Source of the DNA: Escallonia rubra
Lineage: Eukaryota; Streptophyta; Magnoliopsida; Escalloniales; Escalloniaceae
Reading direction: 5' to 3'
DNA: 64,000 nt
NCBI GenBank assembly: GCA_033065855.1
Contig: JAVXUO010001879.1
Span: 124,001 to 188,000, forward strand
Part shown: positions 23,771-56,014 of the stretch, one piece after another
Layout: each line of letters opens with the position of its first letter
How positions within the stretch are numbered: position 1 is the first letter of the stretch
The notes under the pieces: model-generated
The model's input: the letters and a program-made list of their open reading frames with translations, nothing else
What the model was told of the DNA's origin: nothing
Database searches by the model: none
Position numbers and translations under genes: made by a program

Positions 23771-24929
23771 AGAGTAAATTGCACCAATGGCCACTGAACT
23801 ATGACCTATTTTTCACTTAAGTCACCCAACTTTATTTTGTGCCATTTTGGCCACTAGACTATCAAATCTGACCGATTTCACCACTCCGTCTGCCAGTGTT
23901 AATTTCTCTCTGTTAAATGGTCATGCGCCGTGCACATGACCATTCAAATTAGGGGTAATTTCGTCCCTTCTTGTAAATCGTTCCCATAACTGACATTACC
24001 CTCTCATTTCCCTCCTTGTCATTTCATCATGGATAGGAGGAGCTTCAGAAACTGCTGTGCTTGATACCTCAAGAACTACAGAAAAGCTTCCACTTGTTGA
24101 CACATTAATTATCACTACCCAAAGATCTTCCGTCTTCTGTAGGGAAAAATGTAACTATTTCCTGTCCACCAAAGTCGCTAGATGTAGGTTCCGCTGCGGC
24201 AGGACAAGAAATGATATGTGCCTTAGTTTTTACTCCAACCGATGCCGGCTAATGCGAGGAAGACGTCAAGAAAGGTGTAGAAACACGATGGGGATGTTTG
24301 TGACTGAAGCGGTAGGGGCCCCCAGCGCCGCCGTGCTTCTCGCCGTCGGTTATTTCGTGGGTGTGCTTATGGTGTTCAGGGCTATGGGAAGTTTGCTTCT
24401 GCTCTTCGACCACAATCACCACCGTCTTCCTCCAGACCCACAAAGATCATCAAAATCCAATCACTTTCAGCCATAAAAACCACCACATCACAACTCAACC
24501 ACCGCCGGTCATCGATCCATGCCGTCACTGACACCCCGCTTGCCCAATCTCCGCTTCTTCGTCAATCCAACCCAAAAATTAGCCCATTCTACGTCATCGA
24601 AAGCCTCACCCATTGCCCCCTAACATGACGCGGAGGCTGATCTGATGGAGGTAGATCGCTGTGTGAGAGGGAAGGAGAGGGAGAGAGAGAAAAGAAAGAT
24701 AGAGAGAGAGAAAAAAGAGGGATTGGTGGGGAGGGACAGTTTTGCCCCTGCTTTGATGGGGCATGTGCTCGTCATGTGACCATTTAACGGAGAAAGTGTA
24801 ACCCTAACTGACAGAATGACTTGATTGAACAAAAGTGTGAGTCCAGTGACCAAATCGACACAAATTAAAGTTTAGTGACTTAAGTGAAAAATGGGTCATA
24901 GTTCGGTGGTGATTGGTGCAATTTACTCT
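23771..24929. mobile_element. Long-TIR (~180-200 bp) non-autonomous DNA transposon
   Basis: The left end AGAGTAAATTGCACCAATGG and the inverted right end (ATTGGTGCAATTTACTCT) begin terminal inverted repeats that can be followed for nearly 200 bp (23771-23970 against 24760-24929). AAAGATA directly flanks both ends (23764-23770 and 24930-24936), giving a 7-8 bp target duplication that suggests a hAT- or Mutator-like superfamily. The interior (23971-24759) contains a plus-strand start (ATGGATAGGAGGAGC, about 24029) quickly closed by stops and a cysteine-containing stretch near 24140-24200. I cannot assign that to a family. Confidence 0.75.
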
Positions 24930-33972: not shown

Positions 33973-33975
<3 letters not shown>

Positions 33976-34051: not shown

Positions 34052-34523
34052 CTAGTATAGAGCACGTGCGTCGCACGTGGATATTGTCGAGAGTAATGTT
34101 TGAAATAGTATTATTATCTTTTTTTGGAATCAAAATAATGTAATTTAATTATGTTCTTATTTCTTTTGTGACTTGTTTTAGAAAAAATGTATATTTGATG
34201 TTCACAATTGTAATCAATTCAATGTTTGAAAATATTCTTCGTAGACTTCTAAATTGAAGAAATGTTGGATGGTACTACTGAAAATAAAAGCAAATTAAGA
34301 AATTAAAAGAATAAATCTATGTCTTTATTTTTGTAATTTGTTAAATTGGTTTATGGTTAAGATTTGTAATTTTCAAGACCAGATGCTTTGCATTTCATCA
34401 ATAAGAAATACAAAACACCCCGTCTTCAACTGTAATAACCGAACATATTTTCAGTTCAAATTGGCACCATATTTAAGCCTTGTCTTTTTATGCATATTTA
34501 ACCCTTTTTCATTTTTTTTCTGT

Positions 34524-34567
<44 letters not shown>

Positions 34568-34860
34568 GCGCACGCACATATATATTTTTTGTAACCACAC
34601 ATTTTGTTTCCCAATGTGTAAATGTAGGTTTAGATTAAATTTATGATCTAATGTTCATTAAACGCATTACAAAAAACTAATTAGGGAAGGGTATGGTTGT
34701 CATTGGAATAACTAACGCAGGGTAAAATCGAAAATGATTACAAAATTAGTAATTAATAATAGTATTTATGAAATGGTATGATTCTTATTGGAGTGATTAA
34801 CGAAGGACAAAAACAGAATAAAATAATTTACAAGATTCATACTTTTATAGGTAGTATAGA
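34052..34860 (-). mobile_element. Non-autonomous Helitron A
   Basis: On the minus strand it starts TCTATACTACC (34860) and ends CTATACTAG (34052), preceded by a GC hairpin (CACGTGCGACGCACGTG) about 8 nt before CTAG. The flanks are A before TC and T after CTAG, the A|T insertion rule of Helitrons, with no target duplication. Length 809 bp. No RepHel coding sequence, so it needs a helper. It contains a (TA)n run at 34530-34561. The same family occurs at 40048-51641 in the opposite orientation. Confidence 0.85.

Positions 34861-37222: not shown

Positions 37223-37257
<35 letters not shown>
34909..37257 (-). mobile_element. LTR of a chromovirus-like element, distal part (split by insertions)
   Basis: Read on the minus strand this appears to be the 3' portion of a long LTR whose start is at 52798 (TGTAATATCC after a polypurine tract). 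It ends GGGGCGTTAGA at about 34909, close to the GGGGCGTTACA ends I associate with Tekay/Del-like LTRs. No coding sequence. The two pieces (34909-37257 and 51642-52798, about 3.5 kb together) meet at a (TA)n tract opened by other transposons. The lineage is from memory; the split is inferred from matching orientation and the TA tract on both sides. Confidence 0.5.
37229..37257. repeat. (TA)n tract at left border of element 1
   Basis: Pure TA dinucleotides directly abutting the inverted repeat that begins at 37258. Confidence 0.95.
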
Positions 37258-37259
<2 letters not shown>

Positions 37260-38774
37260 TGATCCGTTGAAAGTGCTAGCAAACTGAGTTAAGTTGCTAG
37301 CGCGATCTGGCCGTCCACGCGCGATTTGTGGACGGTCCAGATCTTTTTTTGGCATTTTTTTAAGTCCGTCCGCTACATTATGTAGCGGACTATTTTTGGA
37401 CAAAAATACCCTTCAGCTCCGTCCGCTACATTATGTAGCGGAGGAGTAGACAGCCACTATTTTTTTCTATCCTTTCTCTCATTAAAATTCCGACACGTTT
37501 CTCTCTCTCTCATTTCTCTCATCAATTTCTGACACACTCTCTTTCCTCGCTCTCTATTTCTCTCTCTCTCATCAATTTATGACACTTTCTCTTTCTTTCT
37601 CTCTCTTTTCTCTCACCATGATTTCTTTTATGGGTTCTGGATGTAACCAAAATGAAATTCATAGCATGGATCTTGTTCAGCCGTGAAGAAGAGACGTCGA
37701 AGAGCGGCGCCGGAGCAGTCAAATCTCTGTCTTCTCCGACGAGGAAGCCGGCGGATCTGGTTGAAGGATCTTGTTCAAAAGCACTTACAGCGCATTTCCA
37801 GAAGAGTGCCGTTACAGCCTCAATACGGGTTGGCTTCTGCACACCCAACCCGCTTGCTTCCTCCTTGAGTGCAACTAATGTCGACGCATCAAATACAAAT
37901 CTCCTTACAGCACGAGCGCATCAAATACAAATCGCCATCAATTTTGCACTCAAACCGTCACCGGCTGACGAGCTCTTCTCTGACGGCACTGCGACTCTCC
38001 AAACCATGCCTTGTCGTCCCATCACCGTCATTACCAGGCAATCGACGCACCACCAGGGCCAATCGGTGCAACCACCAGCGCTCTCAACCCAATTTTACCA
38101 CAGGCCCAGGCACCACAAAACCACCGCCATCACTGTGAAGCTGCCGGAGCAGAAATACAAACACAATAACTCAACAAAAAAAAGGGGAAAGAGATGAGAA
38201 TTAGGCAATTGCGGTATCCTCGTCACGAGGGCGGAGCTGTACATGAAGCGGGCGCGTGGCGGGGGCGCGTCGTCGTGGGTTTGTTGGTTGTGGTGGTCAG
38301 AGCTCGGGGAGGAGGCGAACGCCTCTGCTGCGGCGACGCCAGAGTCGAGCTCGGCCGTGTTGAGGGCTGTTGTCATTACTGCAAGGAGGATGGAGAGGAG
38401 AGAGAGAGAGAGAAGAAGAAGAAGAAAGGAGGGGACATGAGAGGCAGACATGTCAGGAGAGAAAAAGAGTATGTCTCTGTTTGATACATAATGTAGCGGA
38501 TAGATTTATGTCAAAAAAATTATCCGCTACATAATGTAGCGGACATGAAACATGTCAAAAAATTAATCAGATAAAGGAGAGAAAAAAGTACTGTCTCTGT
38601 CCGCTATATAATGTAGCGGACGGAGCTGGATGGTATTTTTGTCCGAAAATTGTCCGCTATATTACGCAGCGGACGGACTTAAAAAAAAAATCTGAACCAT
38701 CCACAGATCGCGCGTGGACGGCCAACTCGCGCTAGCAACTTAACTCAGTTTGCTAGCGCTCTCAACGGATCAGC
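37258..38774. mobile_element. Hairpin-ended long-TIR element 1
   Basis: Starts GCTGATCCGTTGA and ends TCAACGGATCAGC. The inverted repeats continue for about 200 bp (37258-37460 against 38575-38774). Each arm carries a chain of hairpins. The first is a GCTAGCAA...TTGCTAGC hairpin 17 bp from the end (37275-37301 and 38731-38757). The second is GATCTGGCCGTCCAC pairing with GTGGACGGTCCAGATC (37304-37343). Then come near-perfect palindromes of the form TCCGCTACAT, one base, ATGTAGCGGA. Both outer borders are (TA)n, so a target duplication cannot be resolved. The interior is CT-rich (left) and GA-rich (right). Short ORFs there (37652-38197 plus, 38451-38095 minus) match nothing I know, so no transposase is evident. 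Superfamily uncertain. Confidence 0.85.
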
Positions 38775-38827
<53 letters not shown>

Positions 38828-38845
38828 ATATATATATATATATAT
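38775..38845. repeat. (TA)n tract between elements 1 and 2
   Basis: Seventy bases of almost pure TA, with TATG and TATC interruptions, separate two unrelated inverted-repeat elements. Confidence 0.95.
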
Positions 38846-40047
38846 GGGAAAAGCGAATATAAGGCTAGCCTCACGCAACTTGCGTGAGGCTAGCAACTGA
38901 AACGACGTAGTTTTGGGAAAATCATACGTAATCTTTTTTTTTTCTTTTTCCTTTTTTCCTTTTTCTCTCAGTCCTTTCCCCCATGTTTTCCTTTTCTCTG
39001 CGTCTCTGTCAGGACCTAGCAACCCACCGCCGCAACCTTCCCTCGCATGCCACCATCACACCCACCACCGCAACCTTCCCGCGCATGCCACCATCACACC
39101 CACCGTCAACCATCATCGCCCCAAACTTCTTGCGCCGGCCACCGTCACCCATCACCGCCCCAACCTTCCCTCGCCGGCCACCATTTAACCAATTTATTTC
39201 CCTCGTTTTCTCTCTCTCCCTTCTCCCCGTTTTTCTTCTCTCTGCCACAGGCATTGGTTTCCTTCCACTATCAGTAATGTAATTGCCAGTTTTCACACTT
39301 TGTGTTGAGAGAGAAATCACTGGGTGAAGGATTACTTTCCTGCTAATGACCAAACTTCAATTCGGAAGGTAAACGAAATTTAATTCAAACAGATTCCTGG
39401 GTTGGGTCTCGATCAAAGGCAAAGCAAAAGCAAAAGGCAAATAATCCTTATGGCTTCCCTTCTGCCAATGAAATTTGATTTAAGAACCCAAATGAACATC
39501 GACCAAGGCTCTCTCTGCTAAAGAAATGAAACTCAGTAACGCCAAAATATATGGCAGTGATTAGTGACGGTGGGTTTGGTGGTGGCCGGCGCAGGAAGGT
39601 TGGGCGGTGATGGGCTACGGTGGGTGCGATGGTGGCCGGCGCGGGAAGGTGGGGCGGTGGCTTGTGACAGTGTTTGTCTATGGTGTTGGCGCCTTGGCGG
39701 TAACTATCGCGGCATGATGATGATTGTCGATGGGCGTGATGGCGGTTGGTGCTGGAAGGTGGGGCGGTGATTGGTGACGGTAGCCGGCGCAGGAAGGTTG
39801 GGCGGTGGGTGCAGGAAGATTGGGGAAGGTTGGGCAGCGGTTGAAAGTTGGGCAATGGTTGCGGCGGTGGGTTGCTAGGGCCCGACAGAGAGATGCAGAG
39901 GAAAGGAAAACAGGGGGGGAAGGGACCGAGAGAAAAAGGGAAAAAGGAAGAAAAAAAAAGACTACCTATGTTTTTCCCAAAACTACGTCGTTTCAGTCGT
40001 TAGCCTCACGCAAGTTGCGTGAGGCTAGCCTTATATTCGCTTTCCCC
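38846..40047. mobile_element. Hairpin-ended fold-back element 2
   Basis: Starts GGGAAAAGCGAATATAAGG and ends with its inverse. A perfect hairpin (GCTAGCCTCACGCAA, one base, its complement) lies 18 bp from the left end (38864-38894), with a one-mismatch version at 39999-40029, 18 bp from the right end. ACGACGTAGTTTTGGGAAAA follows on both sides. Complementarity resumes further in: the CTAGCAACCCACCGCCGCAACC region (about 39015) pairs with GGTTGCGGCGGTGGGTTGC (about 39857). Arms may therefore exceed 340 bp with a loop near 39200-39550. The arms contain degenerate CACCATCACACCCACC-type repeats. No transposase. (TA)n flanks both sides. Confidence 0.85.
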
Positions 40048-41083
40048 TATATATATATATACTACATATAAAAGTACGAATCTTGTAAATCTTTTTATTT
40101 CACTTTTGTCCTTCATTAATTCACTCTAATAACAATCTTATCCTTTAATAATTACTACTTCATTATTACCCTACCCTTTCATAAATACTACTCCATTATT
40201 ACCCTACCCTTTCATAAATACTATTGTTAATTACTAATTGTGTAATCATTTTGGGTTTTACCCTCCGTCAGTTATTTCAATAACAACTTTACCTTCCCTA
40301 ATTAGTTTTTTTGTACTGTGTTTAAGAAACATTATGTTATAACTTTTAATCTAAATCAATATTTACATATTGAGAAACAAAATATGTAGTTGTTAAAAAT
40401 ATATTTATATATATATGGATGCGTGTGTGTGGGTGTATGCGCGCCCGCACTACCTCTAAAAGTATAAATTTTATAAATTATTTTTTGACGATTATGTTTT
40501 CCGTTAATTACGTTAATTACATTCTTATCCTTCTTTTATTACTCATTTTTAAATTTTGATGAAATTAAAATAATATTGGGTAATGAATCTATTTTATACA
40601 TTGGTTGAAAAATGAAAAATGTGATGAGAAAGAAAAGCATAACAAAAAAGTTCATTTATTATATTCTTTTAATTTAGTTAAAATAAAATAAATATTAGAT
40701 ATTGACCTGGTTAATGAAAATTGTAATTTTTTTTTTTTTTTTTAGGTTAGTAAACAATTAACCAATTTAAATTCTGATAATCGAAAACAACATAAATAAA
40801 CTAAAATACGTGAAAAAACAATTGAGAAACAGAAAATTGTTAGGAAAACAAAAAAAGGGTTAAATAAAAACACAAGGCTCAAATATGGTGCAAATTTGAA
40901 TTGAAAATATGTTCGATTATTGCAGTTGAAGATTGAGCGTTTTGTGTTTCTTATTGATGAAACATAAAGGACCTGATCTTGAAAATTATAAATCTTAACC
41001 ATTAACCAATTTACTAATTTACAAAAATAAAGACGTAAATTCATTCTTTTAAGTTCTCTATTTGCTTTTATTTTTAACAGTAC

Positions 41084-41481
41084 TGATATGGGCAAAATTA
41101 TCAGAGCCAAGATGACGACACGTGTCCTCATCCGGAAGAACCATAACTTATGCATTGAATCCACTTCTCCATAAATGATGGTAACAGCCCATTAAAAGGA
41201 GATTAACGGATCATTAATCCTGGAATAAGTCTATTTAGGTAACCCCCTAATAAGGAGACATAACTACCCTCTGATCGGGAGCTCTATATAAAGGAAATGG
41301 AGACAAAGAAAGAGGGAAGTTTTCTGGTTCAACAACAATAGTCAAATTCAGACAGATTAACTGACTTAAGCATTGGAGTGTCTCCGCCGAAAACACTTCC
41401 GGCGAAGTAATCGGTGTCGTTTTTGCTGCGCAGGCTTACTTACGAATCATCGGAAGCGTGTTCCAGATTTCATCCACAACA
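41084..41481 (+). mobile_element. 5' LTR of the Tat element
   Basis: TG...CA ends; TATA box CTATATAAAG at about 41283. The TGACTTAAGCATTGGAG block at 41362-41378 and a hairpin CGCCG...CGGCG (about 41385-41404) lie downstream in the presumed R/U5 region. Length 398 bp. Confidence 0.95.
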
Positions 41482-41484
41482 TTT

Positions 41485-41501
41485 TGGCGCCATCCGTGGG
41501 A
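41485..41501 (+). promoter_or_regulatory. Primer-binding site
   Basis: TGGCGCCATCCGTGGGA begins three bases after the LTR. Its first seven bases, TGGCGCC, are complementary to the 3' end of plant tRNA-Asp (which ends GGCGCCA); the remainder diverges, so the primer tRNA is not certain. Confidence 0.75.
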
Positions 41502-41522
41502 CACGAAATTCGTAAGTAAATC

Positions 41523-44500
41523 ATGTCGCAGAATCCTAATCCGCAAGCTCAGTTAGGAGGAGCCCCTCCACCAGGGTCATCTTCAGTTCTAATACACGAC
41601 CCAGTTCGGGGGGTCTCCACATCTCAGCCGCCCAACCGCGGCAAAAAGATTATGGGTGCGCCATCCATCACTACTATGGCGCGAACCACTGCGGTACCTG
41701 TAATCCCTGCAGTAATACCAACTGTCGTAACGGCACCGGCATCTATTGCAGTGATACCGCCGGCGGTGACATTCACTCCAACATCCGTAAACACAGTCGT
41801 GCGTCCACTCCAAACTGTTGGCGTATCTGAACCTCCCTTTACCAGTGTCACCACAATGGGAGTGAACATCACTCCATCTACGGATAACCAAACCGACCTG
41901 ATGGCCATTATCCGAGCAATGCAACAATCTATTGAAAAATTGCAAGCTGCTATAGAACATCCGCCTCCCCAGCAGGCAACTCTCAGGACTCCGGGCACTT
42001 CAAAGACCCCGGAACAAACAAGTCACAACCAACACGAGACCCAGGTAGCAGATGAAGAATTTGACGACGAAAGGCGGAATCCAAGATCTAGAAAGCGTCG
42101 AGAAAATTATAATGAGGCTCACTCTTACCCCAATACTGGGGGTAATCGGGCGGAACAATACTCCAACGTTCCAATTATAACTGGACAGCCATTCTCCGAA
42201 GAGATCGATCTCTTCCCAACTCCTCCAAACTTCAAAATGCCTCCGTGCGAATCATATGATGGCAAGGGAGACCCAATGGAACACTTAGCCCGCTTTACCT
42301 CAGGGATGAATCTGCATCTGGTGCCTGATCAAATAATGTGCCGGGCTTTCCCTGTGACGTTAAAAGGAGCCGCACACGTATGGTTCCAGCACTTAGCTCC
42401 TCGTTCCATTTCTTGCTGGGCCCAGTTGGCCGAATCCTTCCGAAGCAATTTCCTCACAAGTCGCATTCAGAGGAAGAATTCTTCGGCCCTTTTTCGTATA
42501 ATTCAGGGACCAAGGGAATCCCTAAAATCATACTACGCTCGCTTTAACACTGAAAAGCTCCTTATCGATCATTTGGATCCAGGAGTAACCTTTGCAGCGA
42601 TGGCTAGGGGAGTCAGGCCGGGAACGCCTCTACGTTTCTCTTTGAACAAGCGCCCACCAGAAAATATGTCAGATCTCCTTAACAGAGTGGAGAAGTATCT
42701 TCGGGCAGAGGAGGATTCGACATCGTCACAACAAGAAGAGATTCACTCTGGGCAGAAGAGGCGCGATCGTCCGGAAGGGAACAATCAGGATGAACCCAAG
42801 CGTCCGCGAGCGCCCCTCTCAAAGTCATTTACTCCTCTTAATACTACACGCGGACATATTCTTCACCAAATCAAGGGCCAAAACATCCTCAAATGGCCCA
42901 AGCCTATGAGAGGTCCAGCGAAGAGAAGGGATACTCAAGTATACTGCCATTTCCACAAGGACCACGGTCACACGACAGAAGAATGCAAGGTGCTTCAGCG
43001 AGAAATAGAGAATCTCATCGCCAGGGGACACCTTAAGCAGTTCGTCAAAAGCAACCATCGGCAGCAGACTGGGGGAAGAGGTAACCCTCGAAGAACCGAC
43101 GAAGCACCCCCAAAGGATCCGCCTGTTATCCATACCATCTCTGGAGGACCCAGCGCCGGCGGCCTATCTAGCTCTTCACGAAAAGCCTATGCTAGACAGG
43201 TAAATCTTGCACAAGGACCGGCAAAGCGAGCAAAAGAACTCACCTCGCTAGAATTTGACGACGCAGATCTTGAGGGAGTGAGCCTTCCACATGATGATGC
43301 CCTCGTCATCACTTTGAGGATAGATGCTTTCCAGGTCAAACGCATCTTGGTCGATACAGGAAGCTCGGCCGACATCCTTTTCGACGATGCATTCAATCAA
43401 ATGGGGATCTCTGAGGATAGGGTAAAGCCAATATCTTCTCCTTTGTACGGCTTCACAGGTGCTTCTGCACCGGTAAAAGGGATTGCCTCCCTTACGGTCG
43501 TCGCAGGAGAAACGCCTCGTCAGGCGGTGCATACACTCGATTTCCTTATTGTCAAAGTTAAATCGTCGTACAATGGGATTTTGGGACGAACGGGCCTCAA
43601 CAAACTGCAGGCAGTGGCATCAACCTACCATCTCATCATGAAGTTCCCTACGCCAACGGGAGTTGGTTATGTGAAAGGAGATCAGATTCTAGCCCGAAGG
43701 TGTTACGTGGCATCGTGCAAGGCCGAAGAGACTCTCTCTATTGACGACCAGCGAGACGAAAAGACTTTGAGACGCGCGGAGCCTGTAGAAGCTCTTGTTT
43801 CTGTCCCAATCAGAGAGGGGGATGAAGAGCGACAAGTGAGGATTGGTTCAATGCTGGAGCCAAGAGTTAGAGATCAGCTAGTCTCCTTCCTTCGATCCAA
43901 TATGGACGTCTTCGCGTGGAGTGCTGCGGACATGCCGGGCATTGATCCGTCAGTAATCACTCACCAACTTTCAGTCGATCCCAAGTTCAAACCCGTCAAG
44001 CAAAAGAAGCGACCTTTTGCCCCAGAAAGACAGGCGATAATCAAAACCGAAATCGATAAGCTTCTGACTGCTGATTTCATCAAGGAAATTGACTATCCCG
44101 AGTGGATAGCCAATGTTGTTATGGTACCGAAGGCGGGAACAAACAAGTGGAGAATCTGCATTGATTACACGGATCTGAACAGGGCATGTCCCAAGGATAG
44201 TTACCCACTGCCTCGCATTGATACGTTAATCGACGCTACGTCGGGTCACCAACTGCTTAGCTTCATGTATGCGTTTTTCGGATATAACCAGATCCGCATG
44301 CATGCAGACGACGTAGCCAAGACGGTCTTCATCACTGATCAAGGCTTATTTTGCTACAACGTCATGCCCTTCGGGTTAAAAAATGCTGGTGCCACGTACC
44401 AACGGTTAGTCGATAAAATATTCAAACCCCTCATTGGAAAGGGCATGGAGGTCTATGTCGACGACATGCTTGTCAAAAGCCTTCAGGCGGAGGACCACAT

Positions 44501-45518
44501 TACTGATCTACGACAGTGTTTCGCACTCCTCCGCGAGTATCGCATGCGCCTCAACCCTACTAAGTGCGCTTTTGGTGTATCGTCCGGGAAATTCCTTGGG
44601 TTTATGATCTCCGAAAGGGGGATTGAAGCTAACCCCGAAAAGATCCAAGCAATTCAAGAAATGGTTGCTCCAAGACGCGTCAAGGAAATACAAGTCCTGA
44701 CGGGAAGAATAGCTGCCCTCAGCAGGTTTCTCTCTAAGTCAGCTGAGCGTTGCTTGCCGTTCTTTAAGGCGTTAAAGAACATCAAAAATTTCGAGTGGAC
44801 GGACGAGTGTCTAAATTCCTTCTACAAACTGAATGAGTATCATACGTCACCGCCTCTGCTCTCTAAGCCCCTCCCTGGAGAAGATCTTTTCCTTTATTTG
44901 GCCGTTTCAGAATCCGCCGTCAGTGCGGTTTTAATTCGAGAGCAAGATGGTCGACAGCTCCCCATCTATTATGTGAGCAAGATTCTTCAGGGAGCTGAAC
45001 AGAGATATCCGAATACAGAAAAGTTGGCGTTTGCTCTTTTGATCGTCGCAAGGAAGCTTCGTCCGTACTTTCAATCTCACACAATGGTCGTGCTCACCGA
45101 CAAACCTCTTAGGCGAATACTGCACAAGCCTGATCTCTCGGGTCGTCTCGTTCCGTGGTCGATAGAATTGGGCGAGTTTGACATCCATTATCGACCACGG
45201 CCTTCAGTTAAGGGACAAGCCTTGGCTGACTTCGTTGTTGAGTGTACTTTCCCCATTGAAGACGAAGAACCGCTCCTCGTTCAACCCGAATTGTTCGCTT
45301 GGACACTCTTCGTGGATGGATCCTCAAACACACATGGGAGTGGTGCGGGATTAATTATTAACGGACCAGAGGGCCTGATCATTGAGTACGCTCTTCGTTT
45401 TGATTTCCAAGCTTCGAACAATGAAGCTGAGTACGAAGCTTTGATAGCAGGGATGCACCTCGCTCACGCCATGCGGGCAGCGTCCTTCATTCGTTCAGTG
45501 ATTCAGCGCTCGTTGTAA
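41523..45518 (+). CDS. Gag-pol polyprotein (gag, protease, RT, RNase H, start of second RNase H)
   Basis: A 1331-residue frame starting 21 bp after the primer-binding site. Gag retrotransposon domain about 235-400. Nucleocapsid knuckle near 475-488, C-X2-H-X4-H-X4-C (CHFHKDHGHTTEEC), with His at the usual second Cys position. Aspartic protease with DTGSS (Asp611). RT about 830-1010: the first catalytic site reads SFMYAFFGYNQI, so Asp is replaced by Tyr916, while YVDD (978-981) is intact. Gypsy RNase H about 1090-1220 (AVLIREQDGRQLPIYYVSK). Second RNase H begins with FVDGSSNTHGSGAG (Asp about 1265) and loses frame after MHLAHAM; the stop at 45516-45518 is therefore artificial. Presumably made from genomic RNA and cleaved by its protease. 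The Tyr916 change should abolish reverse transcription by this copy. Confidence 0.95.
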   Translation: MSQNPNPQAQLGGAPPPGSSSVLIHDPVRGVSTSQPPNRGKKIMGAPSITTMARTTAVPVIPAVIPTVVTAPASIAVIPPAVTFTPTSVNTVVRPLQTVGVSEPPFTSVTTMGVNITPSTDNQTDLMAIIRAMQQSIEKLQAAIEHPPPQQATLRTPGTSKTPEQTSHNQHETQVADEEFDDERRNPRSRKRRENYNEAHSYPNTGGNRAEQYSNVPIITGQPFSEEIDLFPTPPNFKMPPCESYDGKGDPMEHLARFTSGMNLHLVPDQIMCRAFPVTLKGAAHVWFQHLAPRSISCWAQLAESFRSNFLTSRIQRKNSSALFRIIQGPRESLKSYYARFNTEKLLIDHLDPGVTFAAMARGVRPGTPLRFSLNKRPPENMSDLLNRVEKYLRAEEDSTSSQQEEIHSGQKRRDRPEGNNQDEPKRPRAPLSKSFTPLNTTRGHILHQIKGQNILKWPKPMRGPAKRRDTQVYCHFHKDHGHTTEECKVLQREIENLIARGHLKQFVKSNHRQQTGGRGNPRRTDEAPPKDPPVIHTISGGPSAGGLSSSSRKAYARQVNLAQGPAKRAKELTSLEFDDADLEGVSLPHDDALVITLRIDAFQVKRILVDTGSSADILFDDAFNQMGISEDRVKPISSPLYGFTGASAPVKGIASLTVVAGETPRQAVHTLDFLIVKVKSSYNGILGRTGLNKLQAVASTYHLIMKFPTPTGVGYVKGDQILARRCYVASCKAEETLSIDDQRDEKTLRRAEPVEALVSVPIREGDEERQVRIGSMLEPRVRDQLVSFLRSNMDVFAWSAADMPGIDPSVITHQLSVDPKFKPVKQKKRPFAPERQAIIKTEIDKLLTADFIKEIDYPEWIANVVMVPKAGTNKWRICIDYTDLNRACPKDSYPLPRIDTLIDATSGHQLLSFMYAFFGYNQIRMHADDVAKTVFITDQGLFCYNVMPFGLKNAGATYQRLVDKIFKPLIGKGMEVYVDDMLVKSLQAEDHITDLRQCFALLREYRMRLNPTKCAFGVSSGKFLGFMISERGIEANPEKIQAIQEMVAPRRVKEIQVLTGRIAALSRFLSKSAERCLPFFKALKNIKNFEWTDECLNSFYKLNEYHTSPPLLSKPLPGEDLFLYLAVSESAVSAVLIREQDGRQLPIYYVSKILQGAEQRYPNTEKLAFALLIVARKLRPYFQSHTMVVLTDKPLRRILHKPDLSGRLVPWSIELGEFDIHYRPRPSVKGQALADFVVECTFPIEDEEPLLVQPELFAWTLFVDGSSNTHGSGAGLIINGPEGLIIEYALRFDFQASNNEAEYEALIAGMHLAHAMRAASFIRSVIQRSL

Positions 45519-45739
45519 AACAGATGTCAGGAGAGTACGAAGCAAAGGATCCTAAGATGGCCACTTACCTGTCTAAAGCCAAAGAAGTAGCTCGCATATT
45601 TACTCTCTTCAAAATCACACAAATCCGCCGCGAGGATAACACTTCCGCAGATGCACTTTCAAGGTTAGCCTCTCAGGATCCATCCGGTTTTGGCCGCACC
45701 ATTCATCTCAACTTCTGCATGAGCCGAGTATTACAATGA
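45470..45739 (+). pseudogene. Frameshifted end of the second RNase H domain
   Basis: The second RNase H continues in a different frame (ALVVKQMSGEYEAKDPKM from about 45510; DNTSADALSRLASQD near 45640). The shift occurs at about 45470-45505. A second shift near 45700 moves to the integrase frame, where HEPSIT precedes the first Met of the next ORF. In related elements these parts form one polyprotein, so I read both shifts as mutations rather than programmed frameshifting. No slippery heptamer was recognised. Confidence 0.85.
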
Positions 45740-47007
45740 GGGAAGTCATGCAAACCGAACATGAACCGTCGTGCATTGATCCCACCAAGGCCTACCTTCA
45801 GAACGACACATTGCTTGCCGACTGGAAGCAAGCCATGAGCATCATTCTTCGCTCGGCTCGGTATGCTGTTGTGGACGATGTATTATACAAGCGTTCCTTC
45901 ACACTTCCTTACCTCCGTTGCCTCACACCGACAGAATCGAATTATGCTATGCGGGAAGTTCATGAAGGCATTTGCGGACAACACTTGGGAGGACGCGCCT
46001 TAGCGCACAAAGTTCTTCGACATGGGTATTATTGGCCGACAATGCATCGTGACGCTTTGGACTTCACTAAAAAATGTGATGCTTGCCAACGTTTTTCTTC
46101 AATCCCCAGGCAATCACCAAGCCCCTTGTCATCGTTGAGTTGTTGCATACCTTTTGCTATGTGGGGAATGGACATCATGGGTCCTTTCCCCACAGCAACG
46201 ACTCAGCGTCGATTCATAATCGTGGCAATTGATTATTTCACTAAGTGGGCAGAAGCAGAAGCCCTGGCAACGATTACTGAAAAGAAATGTGAAGACTTTT
46301 TCTGGCGCGCCATTGTTTGCCGTTTTGGAATTCCACGGGTGCTCGTCACAGATAATGGCAAACAATTTGACAACTCAACTTTTCGGAGTTTTTGCACTAA
46401 TCTATCGATCGAGCAACGCTTCACTTCCGTGGCACACCCACAGACGAATGGACAAACTGAAGTTACGAACCGCACACTTCTTCAGGGGATAAAGAAGAGG
46501 CTGGATGAAGCGAAAGGTTTGTGGGTCGAAGAGTTACCCAAAATTCTTTGGGCCTACAATACCACCACCAGAACTCCTACTGGCGAAACCCCCTTCAGTC
46601 TGTTTTTCGGAACGGAAGCTCTCATACTTGTGGAAGTAGGGTTACCTTCTCTTCGGCTCACATCGTATGACCCGATACAAAATGAGGAGGCTCTCCGGGC
46701 TAATCTCGACCTCCTTGATGAACGCCGTGAGCAAGCGGCCATGCGCCTCGCAGCTTACCAGCATCGTGTATCCAGGTTTTATGACCAGAGAGTTCGTCCA
46801 CGGGCTTTCCGAGTGGGCGACTTAGTCCTACGCCGCATAGAAGCTTCAGCCCCGCGCGAAGCCATTGGCAAGTTAGCACCCAACTGGGAGGGCCCTTACA
46901 GGGTTGTGAGATTAGGAGGCCCAGGGGCCTATCACTTGGAACAATTGGATGGCAAGGCAATTCCTCGAACATGGAATGCGATGCATTTAAGGCGATATTA
47001 TCCATAA
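45736..47007 (+). CDS. Integrase
   Basis: 423-residue frame. N-terminal HHCC zinc domain about 75-125 (REVHEGICGQHLGG, then KKCDACQRF). DDE core: Asp in WGMDIMGPFP, Asp in VTDNGKQFD, Glu in GQTEVTNR. C-terminal GPY/F module near 390-400 (LAPNWEGPYRVV), ending MHLRRYYP. It inserts the cDNA into the host chromosome, producing the 5-bp duplication seen here. All catalytic residues are present. The annotated Met is simply the first in the frame; the natural product would come from the polyprotein. Confidence 0.95.
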   Translation: MREVMQTEHEPSCIDPTKAYLQNDTLLADWKQAMSIILRSARYAVVDDVLYKRSFTLPYLRCLTPTESNYAMREVHEGICGQHLGGRALAHKVLRHGYYWPTMHRDALDFTKKCDACQRFSSIPRQSPSPLSSLSCCIPFAMWGMDIMGPFPTATTQRRFIIVAIDYFTKWAEAEALATITEKKCEDFFWRAIVCRFGIPRVLVTDNGKQFDNSTFRSFCTNLSIEQRFTSVAHPQTNGQTEVTNRTLLQGIKKRLDEAKGLWVEELPKILWAYNTTTRTPTGETPFSLFFGTEALILVEVGLPSLRLTSYDPIQNEEALRANLDLLDERREQAAMRLAAYQHRVSRFYDQRVRPRAFRVGDLVLRRIEASAPREAIGKLAPNWEGPYRVVRLGGPGAYHLEQLDGKAIPRTWNAMHLRRYYP

Positions 47008-47012
47008 ACAGA

Positions 47013-47030
47013 CCGAAGGGGGGGCAATCC
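47013..47030 (+). promoter_or_regulatory. Internal polypurine-tract-like sequence
   Basis: CCGAAGGGGGGGCAATCCC, six bases after the integrase stop, resembles the true polypurine tract at 51012-51023 (G6CAAA). It may be a second plus-strand primer or a relic of the former 3' end before the extra region was gained. Confidence 0.5.
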
Positions 47031-47033
47031 CTT

Positions 47034-47101
47034 CTCAGCCTCAGTCTGTTTATGTTTTAAGTTGATCTCTCAGCCTCAGTTTGTTTATGTTTTAAGTTGA
47101 T
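47034..47101. repeat. 33-bp tandem duplication
   Basis: Two adjacent copies of TCTCAGCCTCAGT(C/T)TGTTTATG and TTTTAAGTTGA differing at one base. Confidence 0.9.
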
Positions 47102-47282
47102 CGCCTTAATTTTTAGTTGACTCCAGAAGCATATTTTGATATGAATAAAAATCAAAATACATGAAATTTGATTGCGTCAATAAAAACCTGATTGCATTAA
47201 AAGTCAAAAGTTACGAGGATCCCAGGCAGTACAACAGGAAATCTTAAAATCTAGCCTACTCTGCTAGACAAATAAATCCTAT

Positions 47283-49241
47283 CTACTCATCCTGATCAGC
47301 AGCATCTCCCGGCACCACCAGCTCATGAGAAACCTCAGGCATAGGTATCGATTGCCTTGGAATCATTCCCGATCCTAAAGCACCCAGACTGCGACTAACT
47401 GAGGAACTAGGCACCCGCAGACCAACAGTTCTACGTTCGGCTTCTTCAGCCCGAAGAGCATCCTCTGCAGCAGCTTCGCGAGCAAATTTATGCTCGTAGA
47501 TACTCAAGTCGTATTCAGGATGATCCTTCAAAATGTCCGCCTTGCACTCCTTATAACCATGAACAAGTGCCCTTTTTGAGTCGCGGTAACGCAGGTCCAT
47601 GAAAAACTGAGACTTCTTGAACTGCTGCACGGCCTGAGCAGCAATCGATGACTTCTCAGCCTTGAAGCAGTTGACTCGAGTCGTTAGATGCTCCACCTTC
47701 TTGCCCAAGTCCTCCACCTTCTTCTCTGCCTCTCGACGAAAGTTGTTCTCTATCATAACATTTTTCTTCTCCTCGTCCAATACTTTGTCAGCGGCAATAA
47801 GCTTCTCAGCCCCGATTTGCACCTGTGCCATGGCCTGAGACATCAGCTGGACCATGCCATTGGCCGTCTCATTGACGCCGTAGCCCGACAATGTCTTGCG
47901 GTCCATGGGAATGATTGCATGACTAGACCAGTCCCATGCCGTACGAGGAGATTTGAAGACAGACTCATCAACCGATACTCCCCAGGCCGGACGATGCGGA
48001 GTGTCAGGACGAACAGAAGAGGAAGTAGCTCTGCTCCCACCTCTACCAGAGATTCTTCGTTTCTTGGTACCTTCTTGTGACTTGTCTACCCTAGACAAAG
48101 CCAAAACAAAATCTTCGAATTGTGCCACCTTTGGCTGTGACCCAGAAACCAAAGCTCCAAAATCCAGGTCCTGCACTTCCTCCTCAATACCGTGAGCGGT
48201 AGCCAGCTCTTCAGGAATGATCTCCCCCAAAACGCCTTGGGCATTGAACAATGGAGGATCCCCTTGTGCGCGCGACGACATGTTTTCTGCACACGAAACA
48301 GAGTTAAGTACACCATTCAATATTAGGTAAATATAAGCTTTGATAAGAGCTTTACCAGGATCATTCTCGCCCTCCTCTTCCTCCTCATCAAAATCTTGAG
48401 GCTCAAGGGGAAGAATGATGCCGCACTCACGGAGCTGGGCATTGCTCAAGGGATATCTGGATTCTAAAGGCTCAGCATCCTTAAGCTTCGCAATATGCTC
48501 AAGGTCAGTTTCCGACAAGTCCTTTTCTTTCAATCTATTACAAGCCCTCGTCTCACATTCTGGGAGCCATACATTACAGACCTCGCCCCTTTGGGACTTG
48601 GGCAGCTTAACAAACAAAAACCTCTCCTTCCAATTATGGTTGGATGATGGGGGGTGTGGAAACAAGTTGGCTTCGGCCTTTGGACGACGACTTAAAAAAT
48701 ACCAACCTACTTGTTTAGTGATTGCACAGATGGTAAAGAACCATCTGAATACCCTAACTCTAGGGTTTAATCCTAGCTTATGGCATCGGTAGATGAAGAA
48801 ACTCATAAAATGCCACGCGTGGGGGGAAAGTTGGCCGGGTGCAAGCCCGTAAGTATTTAGAAGCCTAACAAAGAAAGGGTGGAGGGGAATTCTAAAACCA
48901 TTGATACACATGTCCAAATAAACACCTACTTCGTCAATTGTAGTCATGTTTGCCGCTTCATCCTTGTCTGGAAGCCTTAATTTTACAATCGGCGAAATTT
49001 CACAACGATCGCGTAGAAGCTTCAGATCATAACTACTTAGCTTGCTTCTTAGCGTGTGCGCGTCGAAAGGCTTGGGAGATTGGGCGTTCTCCGTTAAAAC
49101 TTCCTTAGCAAGCACACCCCTAGATTCTTGAAAAGGAACCAATGGATCGCCGTTTTCTAAGATTAAGGGATCAAAGGTAGGCTCTATCCTAAAACCTAGA
49201 GGGTCAGGTTCAGAAACATGTTCCTCACCTTCATTAGACAT
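47283..49241 (-). CDS. Antisense extra ORF (aORF), 'putative gypsy type transposon' domain protein
   Basis: A 652-residue frame opposite to gag-pol. Residues about 105-185 (GVYLDMCINGFRIPLHPFF..., APGQLSPHAW) match the plant domain known as putative gypsy type transposon (PF04195), found in extra ORFs of Tat-lineage elements; function unknown. An acidic run DEEEEEGEND lies near 290, a Ser/Arg-rich basic part near 400-420, and a probable coiled coil about 480-560. A 69-nt segment (48355-48287) with GTAAAG donor, CTTAAC branch-like site and TGTGCAG acceptor lies within codon phase, so both spliced (629 aa) and unspliced products are open. The start at 49241 is preceded by a CT-rich leader and a TATA box. 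No disabling mutation is seen although pol is broken. Confidence 0.85.
   Translation of the reverse strand: MSNEGEEHVSEPDPLGFRIEPTFDPLILENGDPLVPFQESRGVLAKEVLTENAQSPKPFDAHTLRSKLSSYDLKLLRDRCEISPIVKLRLPDKDEAANMTTIDEVGVYLDMCINGFRIPLHPFFVRLLNTYGLAPGQLSPHAWHFMSFFIYRCHKLGLNPRVRVFRWFFTICAITKQVGWYFLSRRPKAEANLFPHPPSSNHNWKERFLFVKLPKSQRGEVCNVWLPECETRACNRLKEKDLSETDLEHIAKLKDAEPLESRYPLSNAQLRECGIILPLEPQDFDEEEEEGENDPGKALIKAYIYLILNGVLNSVSCAENMSSRAQGDPPLFNAQGVLGEIIPEELATAHGIEEEVQDLDFGALVSGSQPKVAQFEDFVLALSRVDKSQEGTKKRRISGRGGSRATSSSVRPDTPHRPAWGVSVDESVFKSPRTAWDWSSHAIIPMDRKTLSGYGVNETANGMVQLMSQAMAQVQIGAEKLIAADKVLDEEKKNVMIENNFRREAEKKVEDLGKKVEHLTTRVNCFKAEKSSIAAQAVQQFKKSQFFMDLRYRDSKRALVHGYKECKADILKDHPEYDLSIYEHKFAREAAAEDALRAEEAERRTVGLRVPSSSVSRSLGALGSGMIPRQSIPMPEVSHELVVPGDAADQDE
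48287..48355 (-). other. Candidate 69-nt in-phase intron of the antisense ORF
   Basis: On the minus strand: donor CCTG|GTAAAG, branch-like CTTAAC about 21 nt before the end, acceptor GTGTGCAG|AAA, AT-rich interior. It interrupts codon 296 after its first base. Removal deletes 23 residues without changing frame. The boundaries are correct only in antisense orientation, so genomic (sense) RNA would not be spliced here. Length is near the lower limit for plant introns. Confidence 0.6.
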
Positions 49242-49415
49242 AATTTCAGATCAAAACAGAAGATTTCAAAAGAAAAAGTTTGAAACTTACTTGAAAAAAA
49301 GAGAGTAGATCTTCAAACTCAAAGCTTAAAAATCTTCAAAAGCCCCAAGACGATCTCTCTCCCTCACTCTCTGAGAAAATGAAGCAAGTAGTGAAGTGGG
49401 TAAAAGGTTTCACTC

Positions 49416-49423
49416 CTTATATA
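49416..49423 (-). promoter_or_regulatory. Antisense promoter TATA box
   Basis: TATATAAG on the minus strand, about 175 bp upstream of the antisense ORF start. The following CT-rich leader looks like a plant 5' UTR. It lies between the ORF and the tandem arrays, so the arrays occupy the upstream promoter region of the antisense gene. Confidence 0.6.
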
Positions 49424-49559
49424 GAAAACAACAGACCCATCCAATGGATGAGATCTCATGACCAATCAAGTCACTTGACACGTGGCACACATCTAAAAAA
49501 TTTTAACAGGAGAAAATTTACCTATTTACCCCATGACGGTAACTACAATAGAGCCGAGG

Positions 49560-50335
49560 AGACGAGCTACTTTGGTCCTAGCCTCTGCCGAGTAGACGAG
49601 CACAATGGACCCCACGCCTCTGCTCTTGACGAGTAGACGAGCTACTTTGGTCCTAAGCCTCTGCCGAGCAGACGAGCACAATGGACCACACGCCTCTGCT
49701 CTTGACGAGCAGACGAGCTACTTTGGTCCTAGCCTCTGCCGAGCAGACGAGCACAATGGACCACACGCCTCTGCTCTTGACGTGTAGACGACCTACTTTG
49801 GACCTGGCCTCTGCCGAGCAGACGCGCAAAATGGACCACACGCCTCTACTCTTGACGAGTAGACGAGCTACTTTGGTCCTAGCCTCTACCGAGCAGACGA
49901 GCACAATGGACCACACGCCTCTGCTCTTGACGACTAGACGAGCTACTTTGGTCCTAGCCTCTGCCGAGCAGATGAGCGCAATGGACCGCACGCCTCTGCT
50001 CTTGACGAGTAGACGAGCTACTTTGGTCCTAAGCCTCTGCCGAGCAGACGAGCGCAATGGACCGCACGCCTCTGCTCTTGACGAGTAGACGAGCTACTTT
50101 GGTCCTAAGCCTCTGCCGAGCAGACGAGCCCATTGGTCCGCAGGCCTCTGCGCGTGTCGGGTAGACGAGCTACTTTGGTCCTAAGCCTCTGCCGAGCAGA
50201 CGAGCGCAGTGGACCACACGCCTCTACTCTTGACGAGTAGACGAGCTACTTTGGTCCTAGCCTCTGCCGAGCAGACGAGCGCAATGGACCACACGCCTCT
50301 GCTCTTGACGAGTAGACGAGCGTAATGGACCACAC
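49560..50335. repeat. Tandem array A, 75-76 bp unit
   Basis: About ten copies; CTACTTTGG recurs at 49567, 49642, 49718, 49793, 49868, 49943, 50018, 50094, 50170 and 50246. Each unit includes CTCTGCCGAGCAGACGAG and GGACCACACGCCTCTGCTC. Long ORFs on both strands are repeat products. Tat elements are known for such arrays in the 3' region. Confidence 0.95.
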
Positions 50336-50339
50336 CTCA

Positions 50340-50905
50340 AACAAGGGCAATAGGCCACGTCTCTGCTCGGCCAAGCCGAGTAGAAGTCCCTAAGTCACTG
50401 CTCGGCCAAGCCGAGTAGACGACTTCCAAAGGTATCTCTGCTCGGCCAAGCCGAGTAGAAGTCCCTAAATCACTACTCGGCCAAGCCGAGTAGACGACTT
50501 CCAAAGGCATCTCTGCTCGGCCAAGCCGAGTAGAAGCCCCCCAGTCACTCTTCGGCCAAGCCAAGTAGACAACTTCCAAAGGCATCTCTGCTCGGCCAAG
50601 CCGAGTAGAAGTCCCCAAGTCACTGCTTGGCCAAGCTGAGTAGACGACTTCCAAGGGCACCTCTGCTCGGCCAGGCCGAGTAGAAGAGCCCCTAAGTCTC
50701 TGCTCGGCCAAGCCGAGTAGACGACTTCCAAGGGCACCTCTGCTCGGCCAGGCCGAGTAGAAGATCCCCTGAGTGTCTGCTCGGCCAAACCGAGTAGACG
50801 ACATCCAAGTACATGTCTACCCAGCCAAGCCGAGTAGAAAGAGTTCCTATAGCATCTCTACTCGGCCAAGCCGAGTAGACGAGTCCCCAGTCTGATCTGT
50901 TCGGC
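50340..50905. repeat. Tandem array B, 35+40 bp alternating monomers (75-bp dimer)
   Basis: CTCGGCCAAGCCGAGTAGA recurs at 50366, 50401, 50441, 50476, 50516 and onward, with spacing alternating 35 and 40 bp, about fourteen monomers. Each core can fold (TCTACTCGGC, three bases, GCCGAGTAGA). The dimer length equals the unit of array A. Confidence 0.95.
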
Positions 50906-51011
50906 CCCTACAATATTTCTCTTCAGCTCATATTGGCCAAATAGTTTTTAATCAGGCAGAAGAGAAAGCATTCCAACATTCCATAATCCTCTTCAGAAAA
51001 GGGAACATGGA

Positions 51012-51023
51012 ATGGGGGGCAAA
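51012..51023 (+). promoter_or_regulatory. Polypurine tract
   Basis: ATGGGGGGCAAA directly before the 3' LTR; primer site for plus-strand DNA synthesis. Confidence 0.9.
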
Positions 51024-51426
51024 TGATATGGGCAAAATTATCAGAGCCAAGATGGCGACACGTGTCGTCATCTGGAAGAACCATAACTTATGCATTGAAT
51101 CCACTTCTCCATAAATGATGGTAACAGCCCATTAAAAGGAGATTAACGGATCATTAATCCGGAATAAGTCTCTATTTATTAAGGTAACCCCCTAATAAGG
51201 AGACATAACTACCCTCTGATTGGGAACTCTATATAAAGGAAATGGAGACAAAGAAAGAGGTAAGTTTTCTGGTTCAATAGTAATAGTCAAATTCAGACAG
51301 ATTGACTGACTTAAGCATCGGAGTGTCTCCGCCGGAAACACTTCCGGCGAAGTAACCGGTGTCGTTTTTGCTGCGCAGGCTTACTTACGAATCATCGGAA
51401 GCGTGTTCCAGATTTCATCTACAACA
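51024..51426 (+). mobile_element. 3' LTR of the Tat element
   Basis: 403 bp, TG...CA, homologous along its length to 41084-41481 with about 14 substitutions, one single-base indel and a 6-bp difference (CTATTTAGG against CTCTATTTATTAAGG). AGTAC follows. Confidence 0.95.
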
Positions 51427-51641
51427 AGTACATCAAACATTTCTTCAATCCAAAGCTTACAAAGAATATTTTCAAACATTGATTACAATTGCGATCATCA
51501 AATAACATCTCTTCTAAAAAATTCACAAAAAGTTGAGAACGTAATTGAGTTACATTATTTTTTATCCCAAGTAAGATAATAATATCACCTGAAATATTTC
51601 TCTCGACTATATTGTCGTGCAACGCAAGTGCTCTATACTAG

Positions 51642-52815: not shown

Positions 52816-53933
52816 ATGCTCTAATTTCATCCATTTTGATTCTCTATAAAAGTGTTCTGATACATCCTCCCGAACTTAATTGGTAGAGTTCTTCAAAAGG
52901 ATGACTCTCCACCTCCATAGCATGAAGTCTCACAAACTCTTCCTCTTCAAAATGCGATTCTATCGCAAACGACTATCACCACAAGAAAAATGACTTTTAG
53001 CGACGGATATTTCCGTCGCTAAAACCCTAAATCCGTCACCAAAGACTTTTAGCGACGGACACCCCGTCGCTAAAAGTCCGTTGCCTATAACCCTGTTGCT
53101 AAAAGATTAGCGACGAAATTATGTCATCCGTAGGAAAAAAATTTACTTTTACCGACAGAACTAGTTACTTTTAGCGACAAAAGTTTCCGTCGCTAAAACT
53201 ATTTTCTATATATTTTTAAAAAAATTTGAATTTCTGAAGAAAAAGTTTTTAAAAACATTTAGCGACGAAAAGTCCGTCGAAAAAAGCTTTAGCGACATTT
53301 GTTCCGTCGCTAAAAGTCTATCTCCAAAAAACATTGACTAGTCTGGAGGACTTTTAGCGACAAAATTCTGATTTTTGTCGCTAAAATCTTGTCTTTAAAA
53401 AATTTACTAGTCTGTTGAAAGACTTTTAACGACGGAATTTCGTCGTTAAAAAAAAGTGAAAAAAGCCTTTTTTATTTTATTTTTTATTGTTTTTTAAAAA
53501 CCCAAACCTGTTTCAGACAATCCGACAATAATTTAATTCTCTAAACTAGCATCCATCTTTTACTAAATTTCAAGTAACACAAATAAGATTTATCGTCATA
53601 TATACTACCAACTAACACTCAATACTTTAACTACCAAAATTACATGTTCACCAAAAATATGATATAAAAGCGATCACATCTACAAATCCCAATAATAAAA
53701 TTACAAGTTTCACTAAAACTAAAAACAAAATATAAACCAGACGCCCAGCGTACAAGTAAAGAAACCGTAAAACCCATTCAAGTCAGGAACAGTTCATTGC
53801 ATGTTGCAGTTCCTAAGACTCCTGCATGGTTGAATGCAATTGCATTTGAGATTATATAAATCTGCAAGCTCAGCAATAGGCAATAGCAGCAGACAACCAT
53901 CAACAAGATAAAAATAGAAAATGTGATTCTACT

Positions 53934-54577
53934 TCACTGTTCTTTTCGAGCTTTAGAGCCAGGTTTTGCTGGTTTAATCACATGGCTTAGGAGGATCAAA
54001 ACTATGGGAATAATGGTTCCGATGTAATGTACACTCCCGTATGCCGCAAGCGTTTCACGCAAGCTCAATACCTGAGATGGATGAAAAGAAGTATTAGAAT
54101 TTCACCTTCGCTTTTAGGCTGTGTAAGTGTGAATTAGACTTATCTTGCACACACGCCAGCAAGCACACACGCAGGTGAGCACACATAGGCAAGCAAACAC
54201 ATACGGAAGCCCACAGGACCCACAAGCATGCAAGCACACACGCGTGCGCGCGAGCATACATACACAGAGACTAACCATGAATCCAACACAGGAGTAGTTC
54301 AGAACTAGAAGCGTGTAAGCAAAGTTCAAAAACACCAACAACTTCTTAACCAGAGTCATACTCAGGGGAATAGCTTGCTGCCATCGGTAAATAGCTGTTG
54401 ACAAATGAACATAATAAGGTTGAGCAATCAGAGCAGGGATTTGACAACAGATTACTTAAAAGAACTTTCTGCAAAAGTTTTTTAAACTTACATGCCAAAC
54501 AGCACTGACAGTCTGTGTTGCCAGCAACCGAAAGAAACCAGGTTTCTTTCCACTTTGAATAAGCCTCTCATAAACAT
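53934..54577 (-). pseudogene. Captured fragment of a lysophospholipid acyltransferase (MBOAT) gene
   Basis: Three consecutive exons near the C-terminus of plant LPLAT (membrane-bound O-acyltransferase that reacylates lysophospholipids in the ER). Exon 54577-54492: VYERLIQSGKKPGFFRLLAT...VWH, including the conserved MBOAT His. Exon 54394-54276: IYRWQQAIPLSM...NYSCVGFM. Exon 54071-53934: VLSLRETLAAYGSVHYIGTI... to KARKEQ and stop. Splice sites are intact. The exon that should lie between the first two (GLYPGY... region) is missing, and joining them directly breaks frame, so no normal product can be made. Good reading frames inside the exons suggest a recent capture. Confidence 0.85.
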
Positions 54578-55915: not shown

Positions 55916-56014
55916 CTGGGAGACATACGAGAACGCAGGTCGATACATGAGGTGGAAGAGCTTATGGCGGTGCGTGGTGATCATCAATTTGAGGGAGATC
56001 AGAGAGTGAATCAT
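55916..56014 (-). pseudogene. Captured first-exon candidate with ATG, unknown gene
   Basis: On the minus strand an ATG at 56014 opens 33 codons (MIHSLISLKLMITTHRHKLF..., FSYVSQ) ending at a good donor (CAG|GTATGT). The upstream sequence resembles a C-rich plant leader. It lies in the same orientation upstream of the acyltransferase exons, so a chimeric transcript is possible. I do not recognise the source gene. Confidence 0.45.

Follow-up and report, generated by a model that had tools for sequence, protein, structure and literature searches.

Two elements of differing sequence, each bordered by TA repeats and each carrying a small hairpin near its ends, lie next to one another in the genome of Escallonia rubra, and the locus raises the question of what kind of transposon they are and how such elements find microsatellites. 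In this study, we report the analysis of the window, a 64,000-nt stretch of contig JAVXUO010001879.1, together with a search of the window's own genome (566 Mb). The two elements, here called A and B, are very probably non-autonomous, microsatellite-targeted Mutator-like elements (MULEs), which would be moved in trans by a MULE transposase and inserted with a 9-bp stagger into (TA)n, building mixed arrays.

Elements A and B and their TA tracts

The features of the locus are as follows, the hairpins being located by folding.

37226..37257: (AT)16 host tract, left flank of A
37258..38774, plus strand: element A, classed as non-autonomous Mutator-like, with inverted arms
37273..37303, plus strand: left hairpin 1 of A, GCTAGC-based
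37304..37343, plus strand: left hairpin 2 of A, CGTCCAC...GTGGACG
37368..37390, plus strand: palindrome TCCGCTACATTATGTAGCGGA, present six times in A (the remaining copies begin at 37422, 38480, 38523, 38600 and 38653)
about 37771..37908, minus strand: BAHD acyltransferase gene fragment in A
38729..38759, plus strand: right hairpin 1 of A
38775..38824: host part of the TA tract, right flank of A and probable Helitron target
38825..38845, plus strand: probable Helitron 5' terminus TC(TA)9T, the tract entered by B
38825..51641, plus strand: Helitron (start probable), holding B and a Ty3 element
38846..40047, plus strand: element B, classed as a non-autonomous Mutator-like foldback element, with inverted arms
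38864..38894, plus strand: left hairpin of B, a 31-nt palindrome on GCTAGC
39999..40029, plus strand: right hairpin of B, outer word GTTAGC
40048..40061: (TA)7, right flank of B, continuing into the Helitron 5' end CTACATATAAAAG

The arms of A (37258-37350/38682-38774) are 93 nt long and 91% complementary, with a continuation at 37355-37442/38600-38687, and those of B (38846-38942/39951-40047) are 97 nt long and 94% complementary. Both elements thus have the long terminal inverted repeats of MULEs, which extend further at lower identity. Arms, folds and flanks agree with the initial annotation, which described two elements with inverted repeats and subterminal hairpins lying in (TA)n, and the hairpin words lie where it had placed them: GCTAGC at 37275, 37296, 38731 and 38752 in A and at 38864, 38889 and 40024 in B, with GTTAGC at 39999. 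TA tracts of at least 14 nt make up 0.34% of the window, and all four ends of A and B adjoin TA.

Inward of the terminal hairpins, the six copies of the A palindrome are spread across 37365-38690, two on the left and four on the right. When viral contigs were searched with the palindromes, that of A gave one isolated match and that of B none; among genome contigs, the B palindrome gave two bacterial matches. All of these matches were taken as chance.

The fragment in A matched PF02458, the BAHD family, at E=1.4e-6 (above cutoff), and its frame also matched the ferulate monolignol transferase structure 7w26 in the PDB (E=5.9e-4). A 181-aa plus-strand frame of A gave no matches in a protein search, the BAHD frame gave none against plasmids (tblastn), Rfam gave none at the gathering threshold and NCBIfam none for four frames. 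No transposase domain was detected among the A frames scanned, and no MULE domain at E 0.01 among the 44 stop-to-stop frames of at least 110 aa in the window that start outside the Ty3 element (two of them scanned partly), in keeping with the earlier observation that neither A nor B shows a transposase.

A and B had been described as sharing one 70-bp TA tract. Both do adjoin this TA, but the tract is probably composite, host TA followed by the 5' TA of a Helitron, because B probably lies inside the Helitron terminus. The Helitron entered between A and T within TA, and its 3' part, which follows the Ty3 element, terminates in CTAG (51638-51641) and then TATATATATA. A sibling Helitron on the opposite strand (about 34052-34860, minus), 80-84% alike in the main aligned blocks, starts with TCTATACTAC and has only TATA at the position of the B insertion, where the Helitron of the window reads TC(TA)9T[B](TA)7CTAC. 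The TC at 38825 is the sole candidate for a Helitron start between A and B; this start is likely, not proven, because a single A-to-C change would look identical. Judged from sequence, the likely though unproven order is that A lay in a host TA tract, that the Helitron entered the same tract, and that B came last, into the TA at the Helitron's own terminus. The TATA of the sibling suggests that TA would expand after an insertion.

Members of this Helitron family have a TC start, a CTAG end and a terminal hairpin, and the TA tracts at their 5' ends range from 2 to 21 units; another 5' end lies near 33974, and a 3' end from another copy adjoins an A copy (L013). The Ty3/gypsy LTR element (41084-51426; 10,343 bp) has a 5-bp duplication, AGTAC, an LTR match of 94.6% and internal 75-bp tandem arrays at 49555-50882. 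A possible CACTA-type element, with ends CACCACAAGAAAAA / TTTTTCTTGTAGTG and many stem-loops on TTTTAGCGACGGA, occupies 52977-56588. Element C (23772-24928), which is of Mutator type and lies outside TA, has a perfect 9-bp duplication, TAAAGATAA, and 198-nt inverted arms with no terminal hairpin.

Genome-wide copies, relatives and classification

At least 203 matches to A (best 40 of 2871 candidates scored) and at least 178 to B (best 40 of 545) were found in the genome, both counts being lower bounds with 40 candidates scored per search. For A, 40 places were taken from the match list, and 39 of them, with the window, gave 80 ends from 40 places, one place yielding no end by the rule used; these are the best-scored copies, truncated ones lacking an end being left out. 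Because several places (L030/L031, L024/L025, L041/L042) are probably copies of each other, the A ends are not all independent. For B, 29 of 30 best-scored loci (L078-L106), together with L052 and the window, gave 36 distinct ends.

Under a lenient rule (TA at 8 of the 10 flanking nt), 73 A ends were flanked by TA, 5 by GT/CA and 2 by an imperfect TA tract. Among B ends, 31 were flanked by TA by the rule and 3 by eye (the plus end of L087 and two in L093), 1 by GT and 1 by neither (one side of L078, outside repeats); the minus end of L087 scored as TA but is AT-rich rather than a clean tract. Most copies are therefore not outside TA repeats (73 of 80 A ends and 34 of 36 B ends lie beside TA), and the suggestion that TA targeting is a property of both families is borne out. 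Microsatellite flanks in most copies, a trait of the SaTar and MiM elements, were seen at 80/80 A and 35/36 B ends (2 A and 3 B by eye). Copy numbers and flanks rule out a chance pairing of A and B.

Microsatellite-joined, uninterrupted arrays of unrelated families were also observed. Thirteen A-A junctions are joined by at least 10 bp of TA, some with GT/CA; A-B junctions occur in the window and at L041/L052, with L086 and L093 added by eye. A copies are also joined to further TA-bounded ends, of which seven distinct ones in four groups (D1-D4) were found beside them.

Target duplications are unreadable inside pure TA. Among 27 complete A elements the only informative one was that of L045, the element with both ends in the imperfect tract, which has a perfect 9-bp duplication, ATATGTAAT; no informative duplication was seen among the B copies examined. 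Seven of the 27, by our own trimming, have no common flank of 4 nt or more, and some of these have unlike microsatellites on their two sides (GT/TA in L026, TA/CA in L036), which simple cut-and-paste does not predict.

Copies that lie in GT/CA repeats, or between a TA tract and a GT/CA tract (L092, L036, L038, L039, L026, L027), are similarly hard to explain by simple cut-and-paste.

A search with the 150-bp end of D2 gave at least 41 matches (best 40 of 505 candidates scored), and 40 of these cover nearly the whole query with 98-100% identity. On eight contigs these ends pair in inverted orientation, 9.3-14.6 kb apart, and six of the eight paired elements lie in (TA)n on both sides. A 12.5-kb D2 element on C2908, in plain sequence, has a 9-bp duplication, TAGTTGCAT, and at a TCTAT-rich site on C2186 eight of nine bases agree by eye. 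The large D2 elements resemble A and B in end layout and are of a size fit for autonomy.

A 527-aa frame with FAR1 and MULE transposase domains (PF10551, E=2.7e-33) was located at C542:7158-8738, 3.5 kb inward of a D2-variant end (C542:12209), which an A copy adjoins across TA. This end is the L024 variant, 89% identical to the D2 query and with a damaged hairpin 1, and belongs to an element known from one end. Since C542:2978-5637, beyond the frame, is 98% identical to the interior of the D2 element on C1958, the frame lies inside a D2 element or in an insertion therein; judged by distances, C542 holds about 3 kb there that is absent from C1958. The 9.3-kb C1958 copy has Ulp1 protease and plant mobile domains and, within the 2.6 kb examined, no match to the C542 transposase. 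Apart from the C542 frame, neighbouring-locus frames gave no MULE domain, including five of the six frames of one scan set; among the loci examined no element combined A or B ends with a transposase, the one FAR1 and MULE frame lying inside the D2-variant end.

Frames with a plant mobile domain (L074, L124, L053) or an Ulp1-like protease C48 domain (L076, L124) lie near or inside large D2/D3 elements; the stretches inward of the D3 ends (L074, L076) are among them, and L053, with its plant mobile domain, adjoins an A copy.

A and B are classed as Mutator-like because of the 9-bp duplications, which fall in the 9-11 bp range typical of MULEs, and because of the FAR1/MULE transposase frame inside a related end. 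The GGG(G) outer ends, the gene fragment in A, the mixed A-B junctions and the occurrence in the window of C, with its own 9-bp duplication, also favour the microsatellite-targeted MULE reading. The 9-bp duplications rule out the poorly described new superfamily that had been proposed, and TA-targeted MULEs are already in the literature. The TA on both borders of A and B would also fit TA-target elements of another superfamily, Tc1/mariner-like or new, in which TA is the duplication itself. We regard this as highly improbable in view of the 9-bp duplications, the GT-flanked copies, the long ends starting with GGG and the MULE transposase frame inside a related end.

In the proposed mechanism, a MULE transposase supplied in trans, possibly a D2-like one, would bind the long, hairpin-modular terminal inverted repeats of A and B, excise the elements and, cutting with a 9-bp stagger, insert them by preference into (TA)n and sometimes into (GT)n. 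Every insertion would leave TA on both borders, and since this places the next element beside rather than inside the previous one, uninterrupted mixed-family arrays would result. A different account attributes microsatellite targeting to homologous recombination of circular intermediates with microsatellite filler, and not to target choice by the transposase (an ancillary recombination system proposed in the passages compared of PMC5907723). It would accommodate the copies whose two flanking microsatellites differ, and the use of GT as well as TA tracts. It is hard to reconcile with the perfect 9-bp duplications, in a TA tract for L045 and in plain sequence for D2, or with the position of B in a Helitron end whose sibling has only TATA there, and we consider it unlikely.

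Structure or sequence at the element ends

DNA folds of the four A and B ends in the window gave z values of -5.6, -2.1, -6.9 and -5.5; the weakest is the right end of A, where 6 of 200 shuffles folded equally well. A hairpin with a stem of at least 8 was present in all four ends, compared with 69 of 5000 random 60-mers from the remaining window and neither end of element C, used as control.

The initial annotation gave each hairpin 17-18 outer bases. This is correct for B, whose stem starts 18 nt from the end, but the 17 of A is peculiar to the window copy. Among A-family ends, 51 of 80 have GGGA directly before GCTGATCC, and since the window copy lacks GGGA on both sides, the true distance from the end to the A stem is 19 nt (copy L013).

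The GCTAGC word common to A and B is weak evidence, because 286 of 5000 shuffles gave a common run of at least 6 at ±1 register. When the co-positioned ATCTTTTTTT run was also counted, the longest run (±3 register) was reached by 0, 5, 8 and 11 of 2000 shuffles for the four possible A-B end pairs; both tests were post hoc. The hairpin keeps its position among family members as had been supposed, but its words vary: no more than 27 of the 80 A ends retain both unaltered, as do 25 of the 36 B ends, 35 of which keep one or both. The GCTAGC word as such was accordingly set aside.

The layout recurs in the D families. D1 (L070, a 1.85-kb element) starts with GGGAGCCGATCC and has a hairpin 1 unrelated in sequence to that of A, followed by a hairpin 2 resembling that of A by eye and then TCAGAT and a T run; A and D1 have in common the outer GGGAGC(T/C)GATCC, hairpin 2 and the T run. 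D2 and D3 carry hairpins 1 and 2 in tandem, and some paired stem changes separate D2 from D3 and D2 variants from each other, e.g. CCAACCGC/GCGGTTGG and CCAATCGC/GCGATTGG (by eye, in few sequences). In folds, the distance from the end to hairpin 1 is 19 nt in A, 18 in B, 21 in D1, 22 in D2 (L025), 21-22 in D3 and 17 in an A-like end (L027). In the damaged D2 variant L024 the first stem is at 25, and D4 has only the inner hairpin and no stable hairpin 1. The ends of element C have z values of +0.4 and +1.2, against -3.9 to -7.0 in the hairpin-ended families; in the random control for these folds 12 of 57 were at z -3 or lower, which is no clean background because its loci are rich in these elements. 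TA-adjacent GG starts at L009/L016 and L032 folded weakly and were left out of the family count.

Covariation within families was at shuffle level. In A (54 ends), 92.0% of stem cells were paired, a share that 35 of 500 shuffles equalled and that is biased upward because 10 of the 64 distinct ends, with shifted, shortened, duplicated or lost hairpins, were omitted; the covariation score was reached by 188 of 500 shuffles and the number of cells changed on both sides by 45 of 500. In B, the paired share was reached by 122 and the number of paired changes by 97 of 500 shuffles; the test took the 15 of 19 distinct 31-mers in which 11 or more of the 15 pairs form, and the four left out have deleted or shifted arms. 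As neither family exceeded its shuffles, within-family conservation looks like sequence conservation. Recognition by end structure, as first proposed, therefore stands in part: the layout recurs in TA-bounded families of other sequence, but pairing within families gives it no backing. What structural evidence there is would lie between families, in the same place with different letters, and comes from an informal comparison of few families.

That the hairpins have no role, the palindromic modules being a by-product of foldback-end inverted duplication while the transposase uses ordinary sequence motifs, has in our estimate not quite an even chance. The shuffle results fit it, as do TA-bounded A copies in which two stem pairs are mismatched (GTGGGC..GCAAAC type), TA-bounded B copies in which one arm is deleted (L082, L095), the lack of a stable hairpin 1 in D4 and its damage in L024. 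The start of hairpin 1 at 17-22 nt in A, A-like, B, D1, D2 (L025) and D3 despite differing sequence speaks against it, as do the paired changes between D2/D3 variants. If the hairpins do act, they may be paired (dimer) binding sites whose placement some 20 nt inside the end is what counts, their sequence drifting from family to family. In a bolder version, which we think improbable, a hairpin or cruciform lying some 20 nt inside each end would be the feature by which a whole clan of TA-targeting MULEs is recognised, hairpin 1 would be swappable, and the same transposase would prefer (TA)n because these tracts extrude similar structures; hairpin 1 could then be replaced by unrelated sequence, as between A and D1, without loss of mobility. 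Because families here differ in the hairpin while the rest of the end is common, structure and sequence can be tested apart, and the genome offers large elements with 98-100% alike ends, small partners in the same tracts and a candidate transposase.

Comparison with known systems

A Pack-MULE consists of MULE-type ends enclosing a host gene fragment, with no transposase. A, but not B, resembles one in its BAHD fragment; it differs in lying in (TA)n, and one fragment was found. Pack-MULEs are named in PMC5907723.

MULEs that target TA, arrays joining unrelated families, and ends of foldback type have all been described before (PMC4486113, PMC5907723, PMC8449440, PMC8227079), and in the passages compared PMC8227079 calls it unclear how MULEs find microsatellites, the question on which this genome bears. 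In the parts of this literature compared, there is no account of a fixed-distance hairpin with sequence turnover between families, which is not proof of absence.

MuTAnT and AutoMuTAnT of Medicago, as described in the passages compared of PMC4486113, are MULEs in (TA)n with foldback modules in their ends, a variable outer G run, which the GGG(G) outer ends here resemble, a 9-bp duplication and a mudrA/Jittery-like transposase. Unlike A and B, 90% of MuTAnT copies are 200-300 bp long. Against the MuTAnT end mask GGGGTTTGCTAGAACA, with the limit of 3 mismatches set for TIRfinder in PMC4486113, the B right end, GGGGAAAGCGAATATA, matches 9 of 16 bases by eye (7 mismatches), and A, GGGAGCTGATCCGTTG, is further off.

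The pineapple Ac-mMITE (PMC8449440) and carrot MiM (PMC8227079) are, like A and B, Mutator-like and located in TA microsatellites, and Ac-mMITE is likewise clustered by adjacent insertion, with no autonomous relative found in pineapple; the passages compared do not mention a hairpin layout such as that of A and B. Rice Micron (rSaTar2 in PMC5907723) shares the (TA)n flanks and Mu-like-element ends of A and B but is 380 bp long.

Another close description is that of SaTar in guayule, rice, sorghum and citrus (PMC5907723, main text), non-autonomous MULEs of up to 1.9 kb in (TA)n, some copies with 9-10 bp duplications, which form uninterrupted, microsatellite-joined arrays of unrelated families as here. 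The words hairpin, palindrom and Helitron do not occur in that main text, whereas A and B show hairpins at a fixed place and an insertion into a Helitron end.
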